Of a DNA stretch of 64,000 nt, positions 40,624 through 48,580 are shown in pieces. This DNA comes from Roseivivax marinus (lineage in GTDB: Bacteria > Pseudomonadota > Alphaproteobacteria > Rhodobacterales > Rhodobacteraceae), in contig NZ_FOAI01000005.1 in NCBI RefSeq assembly GCF_900109705.1, positions 124,001 through 188,000 of the forward strand. The letters run 5' to 3'. Each line of letters starts with the position of its first letter. Within the stretch, counting starts at the first letter, position 1. The notes under the pieces are model-generated. The model did not search any database, was not told where the DNA came from, and saw only the letters and a list, made by a program, of their open reading frames with translations. The translations under genes and the position numbers were made by a program.

Positions 40624-41247
40624 ATGCCCGACCGCGACCCCAGAAGCCTGATCCGCATCGCCCGCGAAGGCGGCCTCGAAGAGGACGGCGCGCCCCTCGA
40701 TCTCGGCGCCCGCGTGCGCGAGCTCCGCAAGGCGCGCGACTGGACGCTGGAGCAGGCCGCGCGGCAGGCGGGGCTTGCGCGCTCGACCCTGTCGAAGATC
40801 GAGAACGGGCAGATGTCGCCGACCTACGACGCGCTCCGCAAGCTTGCCACGGGGTTGGAGATCTCGGTGCCGCAGCTCTTTACCCCGCCGACGCGGGACA
40901 AGGTGAACGGCCGGCTGTCGGTGACCAAGGAGGGCGCGGGCGTGGCGCAGGCCACCGCCACCTACGAGCACACGCTGCTGGCCGAGACGCTCACCAAGAA
41001 GCAGATGCTGCCCTACCGCGCCCGTGTCCGGGCCCGGTCGATGGACGAGTTCGACGGCTGGGTGCGCCACGACGGCGAGGAGTTCCTGTACGTCTTGACC
41101 GGCGCGGTGCGGCTTTACACCGAGTTCTACGAGCCGATCGAGATGCGCCGCGGCGACAGCGCCTATTACGACGCGACGATGGGACACAACGTGGTGTCGG
41201 TCAGCGAGGATGACGCAACGATCCTTTGGGTGACCTCGCTGGTCTGA
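40624..41247 (+). CDS. XRE-family regulator with cupin domain
   Basis: The 207-residue protein has an HTH_3 domain at about 25-85 (LRKARDWTLEQAARQAGLA then STLSKIENGQMSPTYDAL) and a C-terminal cupin_2 domain (about 125-205, FYEPIEMRRGDSAYYDA and GHNVVSV). This architecture is typical of regulators of amino-acid or aromatic metabolism that sense small ligands. It is divergent from the acyl-CoA synthetase across a 65-bp gap, so it probably controls that gene. Confidence 0.9.
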   Translation: MPDRDPRSLIRIAREGGLEEDGAPLDLGARVRELRKARDWTLEQAARQAGLARSTLSKIENGQMSPTYDALRKLATGLEISVPQLFTPPTRDKVNGRLSVTKEGAGVAQATATYEHTLLAETLTKKQMLPYRARVRARSMDEFDGWVRHDGEEFLYVLTGAVRLYTEFYEPIEMRRGDSAYYDATMGHNVVSVSEDDATILWVTSLV

Positions 41248-41283
41248 ACCGGGCCGTGACCGGGAAACGGTGCTCTGCCCCTC

Positions 41284-41306
41284 TTGGCCGCGGGTGCCGC
41301 GGCCAA
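41284..41306 (+). terminator. Hairpin downstream of the XRE-cupin gene
   Basis: TTGGCCGCGG and CCGCGGCCAA form a perfect 10-bp stem with a GTG loop, 36 nt after the stop. Only TTC follows, so this is a weak terminator or a 3' stabilising stem. The remaining 41307-41508 holds nothing I can call. Confidence 0.5.
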
Positions 41307-41508
41307 TTCACCCCGGAGTACTTTCGACGAGAAGAATGACGGGGCCACGTGCTGGCGGGCGGGGCATGTCGCCGCAAGGGGCGCTGGCCCTCCTGCGCCT
41401 GCGACGCAATTCGCCCCGCGGCAATCGTGCCCGGGAAGGGGCCGAGCCGGGCTGCCTGGGGCGTCGGTGGCGAGCATCGCCACGACTGGAGCCGGCCCCG
41501 GGGCCAGT

Positions 41509-43338
41509 TCAGCCGTCGTCCTCCCACCACCAGACGTCGGGGTGGAAGTTGATGAAGTCGCCGTAGATCGGGATGCGGTCGGGGAAGTGCAGCTCCTTCA
41601 CATGGGCGATGCGGCTTTCGCGCCATTGGTAGATCGGGATCACGTAGCGCCCCGCGGTCAGCACGCGGTCGAGAGCGCGGGTCGCTGCGGTGAAATCCTC
41701 GCGGCTCTCGGAGGTGAGGATCGTGTCGATCATCGCATCCACCGCCGGGCTTTGCACGCCCATCCAATTCATCGAGCCGGGCGTGTCCGCGGCGGCCGCG
41801 CCCCAGTAGAGCTTCTGCTCGTTTCCGGGGCTGAGCGACAGGCCGCGGGTGTAGAAGGTCATGTCGAAGTCGAACGCCTCGGTGCGGCGGTTGAACTGCG
41901 CGCGGTCGACGCGGCTGACGTCGACTTCGATTCCCATGCGCTCGAGCGCGGGCAGGTAGAGGTCGACGATGGTGCCGACGTCGGCCTCGGGGGTGGAGGT
42001 GGGCAGCAGGATCTCGAACGATACCGGGTGGCCCTGCGGGTCGAGCATGCGGCCCTGCTCGATCGTGTAGCCGGCCTCTTCCATCAGGCGCATGGCCGCG
42101 CGCAGGCCCTGGCGGTTCCGGGCCGAGCCGTCGCCCTCGGGCAGCGTATAACCCTCGAGCGTGCCCGGCGGCAGGTTGTCGGCATAGGGCTGCAGCAGTT
42201 GCGCGACCCGGCCCTCGGCGGGGTCATGCGTCATGCCGAGCTGCGAGTTCGAGAAGTAGGAGGTGATCCGCGGCTGGCGGCCGCCGGTCATGGTCTCGTT
42301 GATGAACTCGAAGTTGAAGGCCTGGATCATCGCCTCGCGCACGCGCCAGTCCGAGAACAGCGGATTGCGCGTGTTCATCACGAAGCCGGTGATTCCGGTG
42401 GGGCGCTTGTGGGGGATCTCGGACTTCACCACCTCGCCCGAGCGCACGGCGGGGAAGTCGTACTGCGTCTCCCAGGTTTCGGCGTTGGTCTCGCGGATCG
42501 AGTTGATCTGCCCGGCCTTGAACGCCTCGAAGAGCACCTGTGCGTCGGCGTAGAACTCCATCCGGATGGTGTCGAGATTGGCCTGGCCCTGCATGAACGG
42601 CAGGTCGCGGCCCCAGTAATCGGGGTTGCGGGTGAGCTCGACGAATCGGCCCGCCTCGAAATCGGTCACGGTGTAGGGCGCGGTGGCGATGGGGATCGTG
42701 TCGAGGCCCGACTGGGTGATGTCCTTGTCGTCCCATTGGGCCTTTTTCAGGATCGGCCGCAGCCCGATCAGCAGTGCCAGCTCGCGGTTCTCGGTGTTGA
42801 AGGTGAAGCGCACCGAGCGCGGGCCGGTCTGCTCCATGCTCTCTACCTGGCTCCAGGTGCCGAGGTAGCGCGGGTGTCCCTGCGTGCCGAGCGTCTCGTA
42901 GGACCACATCACGTCCTCGATCGTCACCGGCGTGCCGTCGGAAAACGCGGCCTCCTCGCGCAGTGTGAATTCGGTCCACGAGCGGTCGTCGGCCACCTCG
43001 ATCGATTCGGCGAGAAGGCCGTAAAGGGTGAAGGGCTCGTCGTACGAGCGGCCCATCAGGCTTTCATAGGTGAGAAAGCGCAGCTGCCAGGGTACCGACC
43101 CTTTCAGCACGTGCGGGTTCAGGCTGTCGAAACTGCCGACCTCGCCCACGACGATGCGTCCGCCCTTGGGGGCCTCAGGATTGGCGTAGGGCAGGGCCTC
43201 GAAGTCGGGGGGCAGGGCCGGTTCGCCATACATGGCAATGCCGTGCCGGGGCTCGGCCCGCGCCTCATGGGGTCCGAAGCCCAGCCCGAGGGCCGCTCCG
43301 AGGATCGCGATCGTGCGGAAAATCTGGGTGCGCGTCAC
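41509..43338 (-). CDS. Extracellular solute-binding protein, family 5 (oligopeptide/microcin-C type)
   Basis: The 609-residue protein starts at GTG 43338, with GGGGG 9 nt before it, and has a signal peptide ending EARAE (residue 26-28). SBP_bac_5 features include LTYESLMGRSYDEPFTLYGLLAES and DGTPVTIEDVMWSYETLG. The length and pattern are closest to the YejA type, which delivers oligopeptides to an ABC importer. No permease or ATPase genes follow, so the partner proteins must be encoded elsewhere. A TTG at 43404 is in frame but would misplace the signal peptide. Confidence 0.88.
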   Translation of the reverse strand: MTRTQIFRTIAILGAALGLGFGPHEARAEPRHGIAMYGEPALPPDFEALPYANPEAPKGGRIVVGEVGSFDSLNPHVLKGSVPWQLRFLTYESLMGRSYDEPFTLYGLLAESIEVADDRSWTEFTLREEAAFSDGTPVTIEDVMWSYETLGTQGHPRYLGTWSQVESMEQTGPRSVRFTFNTENRELALLIGLRPILKKAQWDDKDITQSGLDTIPIATAPYTVTDFEAGRFVELTRNPDYWGRDLPFMQGQANLDTIRMEFYADAQVLFEAFKAGQINSIRETNAETWETQYDFPAVRSGEVVKSEIPHKRPTGITGFVMNTRNPLFSDWRVREAMIQAFNFEFINETMTGGRQPRITSYFSNSQLGMTHDPAEGRVAQLLQPYADNLPPGTLEGYTLPEGDGSARNRQGLRAAMRLMEEAGYTIEQGRMLDPQGHPVSFEILLPTSTPEADVGTIVDLYLPALERMGIEVDVSRVDRAQFNRRTEAFDFDMTFYTRGLSLSPGNEQKLYWGAAAADTPGSMNWMGVQSPAVDAMIDTILTSESREDFTAATRALDRVLTAGRYVIPIYQWRESRIAHVKELHFPDRIPIYGDFINFHPDVWWWEDDG

Positions 43339-43413
43339 GGCGACAATCCCCCTCTGGCCCTGATTTGTGTCGGATTTTCTACGCCGCCTTTTCTTGGCAA
43401 TCAAACTTTTAGC

Positions 43414-43442
43414 TTGGCTTCCTGAGGTAGAGGGTCTATGTA
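43414..43442 (+). promoter_or_regulatory. Promoter of the small RNA candidate
   Basis: TTGGCT (43414-43419) and TATGTA (43437-43442) are separated by exactly 17 bp, a strong sigma-70-type pattern on the plus strand with no protein gene directly behind it. Transcription would begin at about 43449. Confidence 0.55.
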
Positions 43443-43448
43443 AGAAGC

Positions 43449-43524
43449 ACTGCTCGATAGGTTTCTTGCCTGTATGAAACCTGCCTCAATAACTGAACGC
43501 CGGCCTTGTGCCGGCGTTTTTTTT
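43449..43524 (+). ncRNA. Candidate small RNA (about 76 nt)
   Basis: A good promoter (43414-43442) is followed by a hairpin, AGGTTTC (43459-43465) with GAAACCT (43476-43482) and a 10-nt loop, then a textbook terminator, ACGCCGGC (43497-43504) with GCCGGCGT (43510-43517) and eight T. No gene lies upstream on the plus strand that this terminator could serve: the neighbour at 43338 is on the minus strand. The unit matches the build of a trans-acting sRNA. The hairpin loop TTGCCTGTAT and the single-stranded CTGCCTCAATAACTG between stems are possible pairing regions. I do not recognise the family. Confidence 0.6.
43497..43524 (+). terminator. Terminator of the small RNA candidate
   Basis: A perfect 8-bp GC-rich stem with a CTTGT loop and an 8-T tail on the plus strand. 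It is not the terminator of any protein gene. Confidence 0.88.
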
Positions 43525-43721
43525 GTCTCGAAGCGACGGTGCCCGTGTCATGGCGCAGACCGCGCCCGGTCGCAACCGGGGGGAATCGGGTAGGCGCGGT
43601 TGCACGGGGCGTGTGCGCGTCGGCTCGGAGCCGCGACGGAACCAATCCCCTGTCGCCGCTTGTTTTGCAGGTGCAGCGACCGCATGGTCGGCCGCGATCA
43701 CATTTTCAGGAGATCTTCGGG

Positions 43722-44501
43722 ATGACCCAATCGCTCAAGGGCAAGACCGCTATCGTCACCGGTTCGAATTCGGGAATCGGCCTCGGCGTGGCGCATGAGC
43801 TGGCGCGCGCGGGCGCGGACGTGGTGCTGAACTCGTTCACCGACCGCGAAGAGGACCACAAGCTGGCCGCGGACCTCGGCAAGGAGCACGGCGTGACCGC
43901 GCGGTACGTGAAGGCCGATCTCTCCAAGCCCGACGAGGCGCGCAACCTGGTGACCTCGGTGGGCGTCTGCGACATTCTCGTGAACAACGCCGGCATCCAG
44001 CACGTCGCACCGATCCAGGAGTTCCCGACCGAGAAGTGGGACGCGATCATCGCGATCATGCTGTCGGCCGCGTTCCACACCACCGCCGAGGCGCTGCCGC
44101 TCATGCGCAAGGCGGGCTGGGGCCGGGTGGTCAACATCGCTTCGGCGCACGGCCTGACCGCATCGCCCTACAAGGTGGCCTACATTTCGGCCAAGCACGG
44201 GCTCGTCGGCATGACCAAGACGGTGGCGCTGGAAACCGCGAAGGAGCCGATCACCGCGAACGCGATCTGTCCGGGCTACGTGAAGACGCCACTGGTCGAG
44301 TCGCAGATTCCCGACACCGCGAAGGAATACAACATGACCGAGGAGGAGGCGATCGAGAAGGTCATCCTCGACCGCCAACCCTCGAAGGAGTTCGCCACCG
44401 TCGAGCAACTCGGCGGCACGGCGGTGTTCCTGTGCTCGGACGCCGCGGCGCAGATCACCGGCACGACGATCAGCGTCGACGGCGGGTGGACGGCGCTCTG
44501 A
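43722..44501 (+). CDS. bdhA: 3-Hydroxybutyrate dehydrogenase
   Basis: The 259-residue SDR protein has [12 protein letters not shown] for [11 protein letters not shown], and catalytic Ser/Tyr/Lys in [13 protein letters not shown] and YISAKHG. The HVAPIQEFP and QHV features are those of D-beta-hydroxybutyrate dehydrogenases, which link polyhydroxybutyrate turnover to acetoacetate. ATG 43722 follows AGGAG. A GC-rich hairpin (44525-44541) with no T-run follows. Confidence 0.94.
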
Positions 44502-44524
44502 GCGCGGCCTATGCCCGAAACAAA

Positions 44525-44541
44525 GGGGCGGGCGGTCGTCC
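44525..44541 (+). terminator. Weak hairpin after bdhA
   Basis: AGGGGCGG and CCGCCCCT can pair around an inner GCGGTCGT. There is no T-run, so it may only be a 3' stem. rlmE starts about 35 nt later. Confidence 0.4.
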
Positions 44542-44574
44542 GCCCCTCTGCAAACGGGCGATGGAGGTGCCGCG

Positions 44575-45327
44575 ATGGCGAAGAAGCCGGGCGGGGGCAA
44601 AACCTCGGGGCGCGGACAGCGCGACCTCAAGGTCAAGGTCAAGACGGCGCGGGGGCGGCGGCTGTCCTCGACACGCTGGTTGCAGCGCCAGCTCAACGAC
44701 CCCTACGTCAAGCGCGCGCAGACGGAGGGGTACCGCGGGCGTGCGGCGTTCAAGATCCTCGAACTCGACGACAAGTACCGCTTCCTCGTGCCCGGTGCAC
44801 GGGTGGTGGACCTCGGCTGTGCCCCGGGCGGATGGTGCCAGGTCGCCGTCAAGCGGACCAACGCGCTCGGCGAGAAGTCGGGCAAGCTCGAGGGCCGCGT
44901 CCTCGGCGTCGACCTGCAGGAGGTGGAGCCGATCGCCGGCGCCGAGATCCACCAGCTCGACTTCCTCGCCGACGAGGCCGACGCGCAGGTCAAGGAATGG
45001 CTGGGCGGCAAGGCCGACGTGGTGATGTCGGACATGGCGGCCTCGTCCTCGGGGCACAAGCAGACCGACCACCTTCGGATCGTCGCGCTGTGCGAAGCGG
45101 CGGCGGAGTTCGCCTTCGACGTGCTGGAGGACGGCGGCACCTTCGTCGCCAAGGTTCTGGCCGGCGGGGCCGAGGGGTCGCTCCAGACCCTGCTCAAGCA
45201 GCGCTTCGACACGGTCGCCAACGTGAAGCCGCCGGCCTCGCGCGCCGATTCGTCGGAGAAGTTCGTGGTGGCGACCGGCTTCAGGGGGCGCGCCGCGAAC
45301 GATCCGGACGCGGAGGAGGAGGCGTGA
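44575..45327 (+). CDS. rlmE: 23S rRNA (uridine-2'-O)-methyltransferase RlmE
   Basis: The 250-residue FtsJ/RrmJ-family protein has SAM-binding [15 protein letters not shown] and the catalytic KDKE residues: Lys in RAAFKILE, Asp in VMSDMAAS, Lys in FVAKVL and Glu in SSEKFVVA. It methylates U2552 of 23S rRNA late in 50S assembly. GATGGAGG precedes ATG 44575. The N terminus is extended by a basic tail of about 30 residues. Confidence 0.95.
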
Positions 45328-45472
45328 ACGACGCCAAGCCGCGCGCCACGAAGGCCTGCGCGACGGCGGGCGTGAGCGGCTTGGCGCGTGGCCTTTCGGG
45401 CTGCCGCATGGCCTGCGTGGCAAGCGCGAAGAGCTTCGCGCGGCGCAGGGCGGTCTGGTCGGACGTGTCCAT
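45281..45472 (-). CDS. Possible small basic protein overlapping the rlmE 3' end
   Basis: ATG 45472, with GAAGG 7 nt upstream, opens 63 codons with very strong GC3 bias and a natural-looking sequence ([18 protein letters not shown] then proline/arginine-rich). It ends 46 bp inside rlmE on the opposite strand. The competing plus frame starts from the same CATG. Both may be real, or this is a shadow. The function is unknown. Confidence 0.28.
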
Positions 45473-45977
45473 GTCGGGGCCTTCGGTGGCTGGTGGAACC
45501 CGCGCAGGCTGGCAGTGCATTCCGGCCATCTCGGTTCGGTCCCGCGGCGCGCTTGCGGCAATCCTGTGCGCGTCCCTGGCCGCTTGTGGCGCCAGGGAGG
45601 AAGCACCGGCCGCTGCGACCGATCTGCGCGACGCATCGGCACCCGTCGGCGCGCAGGTTGACGTCACCGCCGCGCGCCTCGCCGGAGAGTGGCAGGTGGT
45701 GCAGGGACGGGGTGTGCCGCCGGGCGCGCGCGTGAGCTTCTCGCCCGACAGCCTGACCGTGGCAGGGCAGTCCTATCCGCTGACCGAAGAGGCGCCGGGC
45801 CGATTCCGCGCCGGTGGGCGGGCGCTCTGGGTGCACTGGCTCGACGCCGATGCGCGCACGGCGGCAATGGGCGATCCGGACGGCGCGTGGGTCTTCGTGA
45901 TCGACCGCACCGGCGCACCGGGCGAGCGTCTCGACGCCGCGCTCTCGATCCTCGACTGGTACGGTTACGCGCTCTGA
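45471..45977 (+). CDS. Predicted lipoprotein with a small lipocalin-like domain
   Basis: The frame encodes a lipoprotein: hydrophobic ALAAILCASLAAC with a lipobox Cys, then a mature part of about 130 residues with LAGEWQVVQGRGVPPG near its start and FVIDRTGAPGERLDAA then ILDWYGYAL at the end, which resemble the first strand and C-terminal helix of bacterial lipocalins. No ideal start exists. ATG 45471 gives a long n-region without a good ribosome binding site; GTG 45324, overlapping the rlmE stop, is further upstream. The stop overlaps the convergent betI gene by 13 bp. Confidence 0.6.
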   Translation: MSGPSVAGGTRAGWQCIPAISVRSRGALAAILCASLAACGAREEAPAAATDLRDASAPVGAQVDVTAARLAGEWQVVQGRGVPPGARVSFSPDSLTVAGQSYPLTEEAPGRFRAGGRALWVHWLDADARTAAMGDPDGAWVFVIDRTGAPGERLDAALSILDWYGYAL

Positions 45978-46552
45978 GCGGCCTCGGCGGCCGCGCGCTC
46001 GGTCGCCAGCGCGGCGCGCACCTCTTCCGCGGCAGGGGCCGCGTCCACTGCATCGCGGGTCAGGGCGAAGCGCAGGTAGATCCCATCGATCAGCGCCGCC
46101 ATCCGCCGCGCCGCGCACGGCGCCTCGTTCCCCAGAAGCGGCCGCAGATCGTGCACGAGGTTCGAGTGCAAGCGCCGGTGATAGAGCGCCAGCAGCCGTG
46201 CCGCCTCGTCCGAGGTCTGGGCCAGCACGTAAAAGTTCAGCCACGCTGCCACCGCGCCGTCGCGGAAGTGGCTTTCGGCAAAGCTCGCGCCGATGATCGC
46301 CTCGAGTCGTTCGGCCGGGGTGTCGGCGCCAGCCAACGCCGCGCGCACCTCGTCGCCGTAGTCGCGCAGGATCGCGCGCATGGCGGCGAGGAACAGCGCC
46401 TCCTTGTCGCCGAAGTAGTGGAAGGCGAGGCCCGGCGACACGCCCGCCCGCTTGGCGATCTTGCCCACCGTCACGCTCAGGGTGCCGGTCTCTCCGATCT
46501 CGCGGATGGTGGCGGCGATCAGGTCGCGCCGGCGCTGCACTTCTTTTCCCAT
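45965..46552 (-). CDS. betI: TetR-family choline regulator BetI
   Basis: The 195-residue protein matches BetI: HTH IAKRAGVSPGLAFHYFGDKEAL near 32-53 and the ligand-domain pattern AAWLNFYVLAQTSDEAARLL, RRLHSNLVHDLRPLL and AALIDGIYLRFAL. BetI represses choline uptake and oxidation genes and is relieved by choline. It is divergent from choWV over a 151-bp gap with a clear dyad. Unlike many relatives, betAB and choX are not next to it. Confidence 0.9.
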   Translation of the reverse strand: MGKEVQRRRDLIAATIREIGETGTLSVTVGKIAKRAGVSPGLAFHYFGDKEALFLAAMRAILRDYGDEVRAALAGADTPAERLEAIIGASFAESHFRDGAVAAWLNFYVLAQTSDEAARLLALYHRRLHSNLVHDLRPLLGNEAPCAARRMAALIDGIYLRFALTRDAVDAAPAAEEVRAALATERAAAEAAQSA

Positions 46553-46703: not shown

Positions 46704-47543
46704 GTGCTGGACGTGCTGACAGAGTACAAGATTCCCGTGGGCGAGGTGGCCGAAACCATCTTCGACGGCATCCGCACCTATGGCGGCTGGGCGCTCGACC
46801 TGCTCGCCGCCGCGATGGAGTGGCTGATCGACAGCGTGCTGTGGCTGATGGAGACGCCGCACCCGTTCATCGTCATCGCCGTCTTCGTGGCCATCGCCTA
46901 CGCGCTGCAGCGCAGCTGGAAGGTCGCGCTGTTCACCGCGCTCGGCTTCCTGTTCATCATCAACCAGGACTACTGGGAAGAGACGCTGGAGAGCCTGACG
47001 CTCGTCCTGTCGGCCTGCGTCGTGTGCATGGGCATCGGCGTGCCGATCGGCATCGCCGCGGCGCACCGGCCCAAGCTCTACACCGCGATCCGGCCGGTCC
47101 TCGACCTGATGCAGACGCTGCCGACCTTCGTCTACCTGATCCCGGCGATCGTGTTCTTCGGCATCGGCATGGTGCCGGGTCTGATCGCCACGGTGATCTT
47201 CGTCGTGCCCGCGCCAATCCGCCTGACCTATCTCGGCGTGTCCTCCACCCCGCAGCCGCTGCTCGAGGCCGCGCGCGCCTTTGGCGCAACCGGCCGGCAG
47301 GTGTTGTGGAAGGTCGAACTCCCGAGCGCGTTCCCCCAGATCATGGCCGGGCTCAACCAGACCATCATGCTGTCGCTGTCGATGGTGGTGATCGCGGCGC
47401 TCGTCGGTGCCGATGGCCTCGGCGTGCCGGTCGTTCGTGCTCTGAACCAGGTGAACACCGCGCTCGGCTTCGAGAGCGGGATCGTCATCGTGGTCGTCGC
47501 CATCATGCTGGATCGCATCCTGAACGTGGGAGCCAAGAAATGA
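46704..47543 (+). CDS. choW: Choline/betaine ABC transporter permease
   Basis: The 279-residue inner-membrane protein has an N-terminal periplasmic/amphipathic segment, five to six transmembrane helices and the ProW-type EAA loop EAARAFGATGRQVLWKVELP for contact with the ATPase. GTG 46704 follows GGGGG. The gene overlaps choV by ATGA. With ChoV it forms the membrane part of a choline importer under BetI control. No substrate-binding gene is present in the window. Confidence 0.92.
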   Translation: MLDVLTEYKIPVGEVAETIFDGIRTYGGWALDLLAAAMEWLIDSVLWLMETPHPFIVIAVFVAIAYALQRSWKVALFTALGFLFIINQDYWEETLESLTLVLSACVVCMGIGVPIGIAAAHRPKLYTAIRPVLDLMQTLPTFVYLIPAIVFFGIGMVPGLIATVIFVVPAPIRLTYLGVSSTPQPLLEAARAFGATGRQVLWKVELPSAFPQIMAGLNQTIMLSLSMVVIAALVGADGLGVPVVRALNQVNTALGFESGIVIVVVAIMLDRILNVGAKK

Positions 47544-48580
47544 GCACCGCCGTCAAGATCGACAACGTTTCCATCGTCTTCGGAGATGAACCGAAATCCG
47601 CGCTGCCGCTCATGGATCGCGGCGAGGACCGGCCCGCCGTGCAGGAGAAGACCGGCCAGGTCCTGGGCGTCCACAATTGCTCGATCGACGTGGAAGAGGG
47701 CGAGATCCTCGTTCTCATGGGCCTCTCGGGGTCGGGCAAGTCGACGCTTCTGCGCGCGGTCAACGGGCTGAACCCGGTGGTGCGCGGCAAGGTCGAGGTG
47801 AACACCGGCTCCGAGATGATGGATGTCACCCACGCCTCGGACGAAGACCTGCGCTGGGTGCGCCTGAATCGCGTGGCCATGGTATTCCAGCAGTTCGGTC
47901 TGCTGCCGTGGCGCACCGTGCGCGAGAATGTCGGGCTGGGGCTCGAACTCGGCGGCATGGCCAAGGCCGAGCGCACCGAGCGCGTGGACCGCCAGCTGGG
48001 TCTCGTGGGGCTCGACGGCTGGGGCGACCGCAAGGTCGGAGAGCTTTCGGGCGGGATGCAGCAGCGCGTGGGTCTCGCGCGCGCGTTCGCCACCGATGCG
48101 CCCATCCTGCTCATGGACGAGCCGTTCTCGGCGCTGGATCCGTTGATCCGCACCAAACTTCAGGACGAGCTTCTCGAACTCCAGCGCGAGATGAAGAAGA
48201 CCATCATCTTCGTGAGCCATGACCTCGACGAGGCGTTCAAGATCGGCAACCGCATCGCCATCATGGAGGGCGGCCGAATTGTCCAGTGCGGACGTCCATC
48301 CGAGATTTATTCATCTCCATCAGACGATTACGTGGCAGAGTTCGTAGCGCACATGAACCCGCTCGGCGTGCTGACCGCGCGCGACGTGATGGGCGCGGCG
48401 GAGGGTCCGGCGCCCGAGGGCCGGGTGCCCGCCGACATGCCGGTCTCGGAGGTGATGTCGCGCCTTGGTGGCGGGGCGTCGGACCTTGGCGTCGAGGACC
48501 GCGGTGGCACCCTGATCGGGCGCATCACCGCGGGGGGGCTGGTACGTCGGCTCGCCGATCCGCAGGCGGCGCGCGAATAG
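47540..48580 (+). CDS. choV: Choline/betaine ABC transporter ATPase
   Basis: The 346-residue protein has Walker A GLSGSGKST, Q-loop VFQQFGLLPW, signature LSGGMQQR, Walker B ILLMDEPF and an H-loop in FVSHDLDEA, all in ProV/ChoV arrangement. A C-terminal region of about 80 residues is a shortened CBS-like regulatory part. It powers choline uptake. It starts inside choW's last codons (ATGA) and is the last gene of the operon. Confidence 0.93.
   Translation: MSTAVKIDNVSIVFGDEPKSALPLMDRGEDRPAVQEKTGQVLGVHNCSIDVEEGEILVLMGLSGSGKSTLLRAVNGLNPVVRGKVEVNTGSEMMDVTHASDEDLRWVRLNRVAMVFQQFGLLPWRTVRENVGLGLELGGMAKAERTERVDRQLGLVGLDGWGDRKVGELSGGMQQRVGLARAFATDAPILLMDEPFSALDPLIRTKLQDELLELQREMKKTIIFVSHDLDEAFKIGNRIAIMEGGRIVQCGRPSEIYSSPSDDYVAEFVAHMNPLGVLTARDVMGAAEGPAPEGRVPADMPVSEVMSRLGGGASDLGVEDRGGTLIGRITAGGLVRRLADPQAARE

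Follow-up and report, generated by a model that had tools for sequence, protein, structure and literature searches.

A short stretch of the Roseivivax marinus genome raises the question of whether an orphan promoter, hairpin and terminator form a small RNA (sRNA) gene and, if so, which RNA it encodes and what that RNA acts on. The locus is part of a window of 64,000 nucleotides (nts), the whole stretch of DNA that was analysed (contig NZ_FOAI01000005.1, positions 124,001 to 188,000). A first-pass annotation had described it as a candidate new sRNA with its own promoter and terminator, possibly acting in nutrient or storage metabolism.

Anatomy and conservation of the locus

The features considered here are listed by window position, and both ends of the sRNA are predicted, the start from the promoter and the end from the terminator.

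41509-43338, minus strand: divergent gene for a family-5 extracellular solute-binding protein (PF00496, 213.8 bits; the start codon at 43338 is our choice)
43401-43412, plus strand: conserved upstream element TCAAACTTTTAG, directly 5′ of the −35, seen in relatives and in the homologue set
43413-43418, plus strand: −35, CTTGGC (CTTGGA in 78 and CTTGGC in 39 of 141 homologues)
43436-43441, plus strand: −10, TCTATG, after a 17-nt spacer (17 nts in 115 of 141 homologues)
43449-43524, plus strand: sRNA of 72-76 nts, proposed StsR orthologue
43450-43456, plus strand: putative pairing element 2, CTGCTCG, complementary to CGAGCAG of the dcw leader
43459-43482, plus strand: 5′ hairpin with arms AGGTTTC (43459-43465) and GAAACCT (43476-43482) and a 10-nt loop (43466-43475)
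43467-43487, plus strand: putative pairing element 1 for the dcw/UpsM leader in the own genome (43467-43485 in relatives such as G002)
43495-43524, plus strand: intrinsic terminator, with the stem-loop at 43495-43519 and the T-run up to 43524
43722-44501, plus strand: downstream gene bdhA, 3-hydroxybutyrate dehydrogenase (TIGR01963, 358.5 bits against a cut-off of 307)

The 17-nt spacing of the −35 and −10, the 7-bp hairpin arms and the terminator with its T-run, all pointed out in the first-pass annotation, were re-read in the sequence, and its placement of the unit between a solute-binding protein gene and bdhA was borne out by the PF00496 and TIGR01963 matches. Beyond bdhA, a gene for a BetI-type repressor (TIGR03384; 45965-46552, minus strand) is divergent from 46704-48580 (plus strand), which holds apparent ABC permease and ATPase genes as judged from translations alone.

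Folding of 43439-43525 gave a z-score of −4.04. A sigma-70 scan of 41000-46000 returned no promoter, and the terminator scan found one terminator against a mean of 2.9 in shuffled sequences, fewer than expected by chance; the promoter and terminator signals by themselves are not beyond chance. It is because of its conservation, and not because of pattern scans, that we regard 43413-43524 (plus strand) as a real, separately transcribed sRNA gene, the transcript being predicted.

A sequence match was obtained in all 36 relatives of the same family (best E-values between 4.9e-62 and 5.4e-15), and the best match in 24 genomes of other families (E = 6.3e-5) covered the terminator part only. When up to three mismatches were allowed, a 30-nt core of the sRNA was present in 379 of 394 Rhodobacteraceae genomes (393 genera), and the reversed control pattern had no match among the rows listed. 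Five of the 15 genomes without a core match do hold a copy, which is diverged (G061, G134, G168, G424) or split into two parts, each at a contig end (G421); nothing convincing was found in the remaining 10, nine of which are at most 90% complete. Exact matches to a central 22 nts occurred in at least 118 stretches of the named collection, and the matches listed carry record titles of Rhodobacteraceae and of related Alphaproteobacteria.

For the anatomy, 160 loci were reduced to 142 with the core and enough flanking sequence, and these to 141 distinct homologues, including the window's own copy and 29 relatives. Although the 141 were picked by the central 22 nts alone, the 11 nts on its 5′ side and the 7 nts on its 3′ side were likewise invariant, so that the 40 nts from A43449 to A43488 are unchanged throughout. 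The linker that follows this block varies in length, and the terminator is a paired stem in all 141 homologues, with 48 different combinations of stem and loop. Since the arms of the 5′ hairpin never vary in this set, covariation is uninformative for that hairpin. A43449 lies 7 nts 3′ of the −10 in 132 of the 141 and is therefore the likely start, which would give an RNA of 72-76 nts. Conservation in close relatives, which the first-pass annotation had named as a check, was found in the 36 relatives and the 141 homologues, and the annotation was right about an orphan sRNA gene having its own promoter and terminator.

The same data bear on two readings in which no sRNA gene exists. A chance arrangement of promoter and terminator would agree with the chance-level outcome of the scans taken alone, but it is contradicted by the family-wide conservation and is hardly credible. 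A small protein gene could be imagined from a short frame beginning with the ATG at 43475, which sits inside the invariant block; this reading has next to no probability either, because the 40 nts are invariant including third codon positions and the length of the linker varies, both of which contradict a coding frame.

The region directly upstream of the −35 is also conserved. With up to one mismatch, TCAAACTTTTAGCTTGG was found as a single copy per genome in 16 of the 31 relatives searched, always at the sRNA promoter, and was absent from the other 15 (3 of the family and 12 others). CAAACTTTT is present in 109 of the 141 homologues, and the upstream element, searched with up to three mismatches, has one match within the window. 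As an observation in its own right, TCAAACTTTTAG before a −35 is practically unique to the sRNA promoter (once each in 16 of the 31 relatives).

Complementarity to the dcw leader

In many genomes a second site contains part of the sRNA core; it lies upstream of MraZ and on the opposite strand. A same-sense motif of the dcw leader was considered for this second copy and ruled out by the MraZ strands; the copy is antisense to the core, and therefore the dcw leader mRNA carries its complement. This complementarity and its position were read directly from the sequences. From 37 family genomes (G000-G036) 31 leaders were scored, the others being too short (G025), without the MraZ motif (G012, G029, G034, G036) or without a MraZ match (G030). 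The longest contiguous complement reached at least 12 nts in 27 of the 31 leaders and at least 14 nts in 24, and in those 27 it starts 220-266 nts before the KGR motif of MraZ. Ten leaders from other families had at most 9 nts, and shuffled leaders (60 for each) had means of 6.3-7.1 nts and a largest value of 12. The four family leaders below 12 nts were those of G016 (6), G022 (9), G023 (11) and G033 (11). Ten further family leaders were chosen for a missing or variant sRNA (10 of 12 loci had the motif), and the complement was at least 12 nts in seven of them and 7, 9 and 8 nts in G061, G134 and G165.

In the own genome, the predicted duplex consists of 12 bp, a 1-nt bulge and 9 bp (21 bp) with an energy of −50.3 kcal/mol, and co-folding of sRNA and leader gave −136.5 kcal/mol against −118.0 for the two RNAs apart. 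Across nine genomes of the genus, a 23-mer complement matched the sRNA gene itself and nothing else, and a 19-mer complement, with up to two mismatches, found the leader site in eight of the nine; the miss is G000, whose leader site has a 1-nt deletion. In G134 both the sRNA core and the leader are changed in such a way that most of the pairing is retained; its own duplex (−32.5 kcal/mol) is stronger than that with the standard core (−29.7) and was reached by none of 500 shuffles. This compensatory change is a single event and supports the leader contact without proving it. Taken from sequence comparison, the predicted contact through element 1 is well supported. A variant sRNA 5′ end in G061 with a 10-nt leader match was also considered as covariation and rejected; the match lies at an unusual place, 270 nts before KGR, and was reached by 5 of 3000 shuffles.

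G016 carries the exact sRNA core, yet it has no pairing site in the leader. In this genome (L187, L225) both MraZ and the leader are of another type, the leader lacking the site, and a site with three mismatches seen in L238 was not counted. Conservation of the core must therefore have additional reasons. Where leaders of the family were aligned, mraZ is preceded by an UpsM-like leader that has a terminator. A cobalamin riboswitch (RF00174, 113.8 bits; L189:2509-2699) is situated close to the dcw leader and mraZ of the own genome.

A second complementarity, likewise observed directly with its position, involves the 5′ end of the sRNA. Of the 31 family leaders, 28 contain the heptamer CGAGCAG, as against none of the 10 leaders from other families; among the ten further family leaders it is present in six and missing from four. 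It starts 44-62 nts downstream of element 1 in the leader, an order that fits antiparallel pairing, and it is paired in the predicted duplexes of G002, G006, G017 and G035. For the own genome, the predicted duplex joins the sRNA 5′ end to a site nearby, not to CGAGCAG, and the co-fold involves element 1 only and leaves CGAGCAG unpaired. For this reason element 1 is the stronger of the two, and the contact through element 2 is put forward as a proposal. The dcw leaders (e.g. L031, L189) have a highly conserved block around GCGAGCAGACATCCCCCCAGGTGGC, and the sRNA 5′ end accounts for its CGAGCAG part only.

The RNase E cut expected from Rhodobacter sphaeroides was placed 130 nts back from the leader terminator, the leader end being taken at a fixed offset from a conserved loop. 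So positioned, it falls between elements 1 and 2 in all 26 leaders with all anchors; five of the 31 were skipped since an anchor was lacking.

Probable identity of the small RNA

StsR of R. sphaeroides binds Hfq and is induced in stationary phase, by heat, by iron limitation and by singlet oxygen. Passages of three papers describe StsR of R. sphaeroides as a 72-nt sRNA that depends on RpoHI/RpoHII and pairs with UpsM and the dcw leader, thereby admitting RNase E (PMC8307010, PMC11354728, PMC8625941), and two others, in which it first appears under the name RSs0827, record its induction under iron limitation and late in singlet-oxygen stress (PMC3413700, PMC3688512). UpsM of R. sphaeroides is given in PMC5089854 as a 206-nt RNA arising from termination within the 268-nt dcw leader and converted by RNase E into a 130-nt fragment, a step that requires Hfq together with RpoHI or RpoHII or both. 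TTG and TAT promoter cores are given for RpoHI/RpoHII in PMC10673084.

The present RNA resembles StsR as an orphan sRNA with its own promoter and terminator and a predicted length of 72-76 nts against 72, and its promoter contains TTG and TAT cores, which are not diagnostic of RpoH. Predicted complementarity to the UpsM/dcw leader, seen in the own genome and in 27 of the 31 family leaders scored, is a further likeness. The proposed partner UpsM (formerly RSs0682) is itself the sRNA of the dcw 5′ leader, and differs from the present RNA in being leader-derived and at another locus. The points of difference from StsR are that the gene belongs to another genus and that the likeness is one of length, promoter cores and partner. 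In addition, rpoE mRNA, paired just after its start codon, is reportedly a target of StsR, and pairing with rpoE as a conserved target was unsupported in the four relatives analysed, where 15, 63, 38 and 101 of 200 shuffles reached the observed energy. The genomes searched with the RpoE protein did not include R. sphaeroides (best match 76%), and the core sequence was not found in the text of the open papers searched. Since the core is present in 379 of 394 family genomes, R. sphaeroides should have it.

In the comparison with Rfam that the first-pass annotation had proposed, the window gave no match at the gathering score of any family, and all sub-threshold matches were well short. Among them, SorX (RF02784) is a Rhodobacter sRNA that likewise has a hairpin and a terminator; its 24.1 bits fall short of the gathering score of 46.6 and it was rejected, and the title of a cited paper has SorX derived from a 3′ UTR. 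The alphaproteobacterial sRNA suhB/MmgR (RF00519), which is linked to storage granules and would fit a storage role beside bdhA, was rejected at 19 bits against 41. For 15 loci (10 with the sRNA and 5 with dcw leaders), the cobalamin riboswitch was the only family found.

Taken together, the gene is very probably an orthologue of StsR, and the sRNA is probably not a new family. The first-pass interpretation therefore stands as to the orphan sRNA gene, its neighbours and its conservation, and not as to novelty, since StsR, which the evidence favours, has been described before.

Two other identities compete with StsR. A different, undescribed sRNA of the Rhodobacteraceae that also pairs with the UpsM/dcw leader would be in keeping with the lack of support for rpoE pairing in the four relatives; we consider it improbable, because predicted length, promoter cores and partner all match StsR and two such RNAs sharing one partner would be needed. 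Still less probable is a regulatory element that acts on bdhA or the solute-binding protein gene and matches the leader by coincidence. The gene order is indeed conserved, both neighbours being present at 110 of 148 loci, but 17 loci retain the solute-binding gene and have no bdhA within 1.5 kb despite room for it, and 4 have neither neighbour (the other 17 reach a contig or locus end on one or both sides, or miss one neighbour). Moreover, the sRNA ends in its own terminator, and the leader match is both conserved and specific to the family. No tie of the sRNA to the regulation of either neighbour was found beyond this gene order, and the suggested role in nutrient or storage metabolism is likewise unsupported except by the conserved position beside bdhA; the predicted conserved partner is the dcw leader/UpsM.

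Proposed action on the division genes

With StsR as the most probable identity, the following course of events is proposed. Transcription from a stress or stationary-phase promoter would yield a short RNA that has a hairpin at its 5′ end and a terminator. This RNA would open its hairpin and base-pair with the dcw (mraZ) mRNA in the 5′ leader, a region that doubles as the sRNA UpsM. The first contact, element 1, would comprise the hairpin loop, the 3′ arm and the 3′ flank, forming 15-21 bp, and the second, element 2, would join the sRNA 5′ end by 7 bp to the leader site 44-62 nts further downstream. The leader segment between the contacts would loop out and is where cleavage by RNase E is expected, so that UpsM and the dcw mRNA would be destroyed and division would slow. 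Control by RpoHI/RpoHII, pairing of StsR with UpsM and the dcw leader, and cleavage by RNase E are carried over from the R. sphaeroides literature by analogy, and we infer the two-contact geometry and the same manner of working in R. marinus. On these grounds the sRNA probably slows cell division under stress.

An anonymous prediction has thereby become a regulator with a name, open to experimental test. How an sRNA can expose an RNase E site is predicted directly by the two-contact geometry; neither for this geometry nor for the breadth of conservation is novelty claimed, the literature search having covered open papers only. Annotation pipelines based on Rfam will miss this sRNA, because no family reaches its gathering score in the window or at the 10 homologous loci. 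Tentatively, and at somewhat less than even confidence, the RNA may be seen as a family-wide and nearly invariant brake on division, which clamps the dcw leader at two sites flanking the RNase E site, has further conserved RNA or protein partners and is driven by a promoter with a dedicated upstream element. If this is true, the invariance of 40 nts, kept in G016 in the absence of the leader site, would mean that conserved partners exist that are as yet undescribed. The link between StsR and dcw, worked out in one species, is suggested to be ancestral to most of the Rhodobacteraceae.
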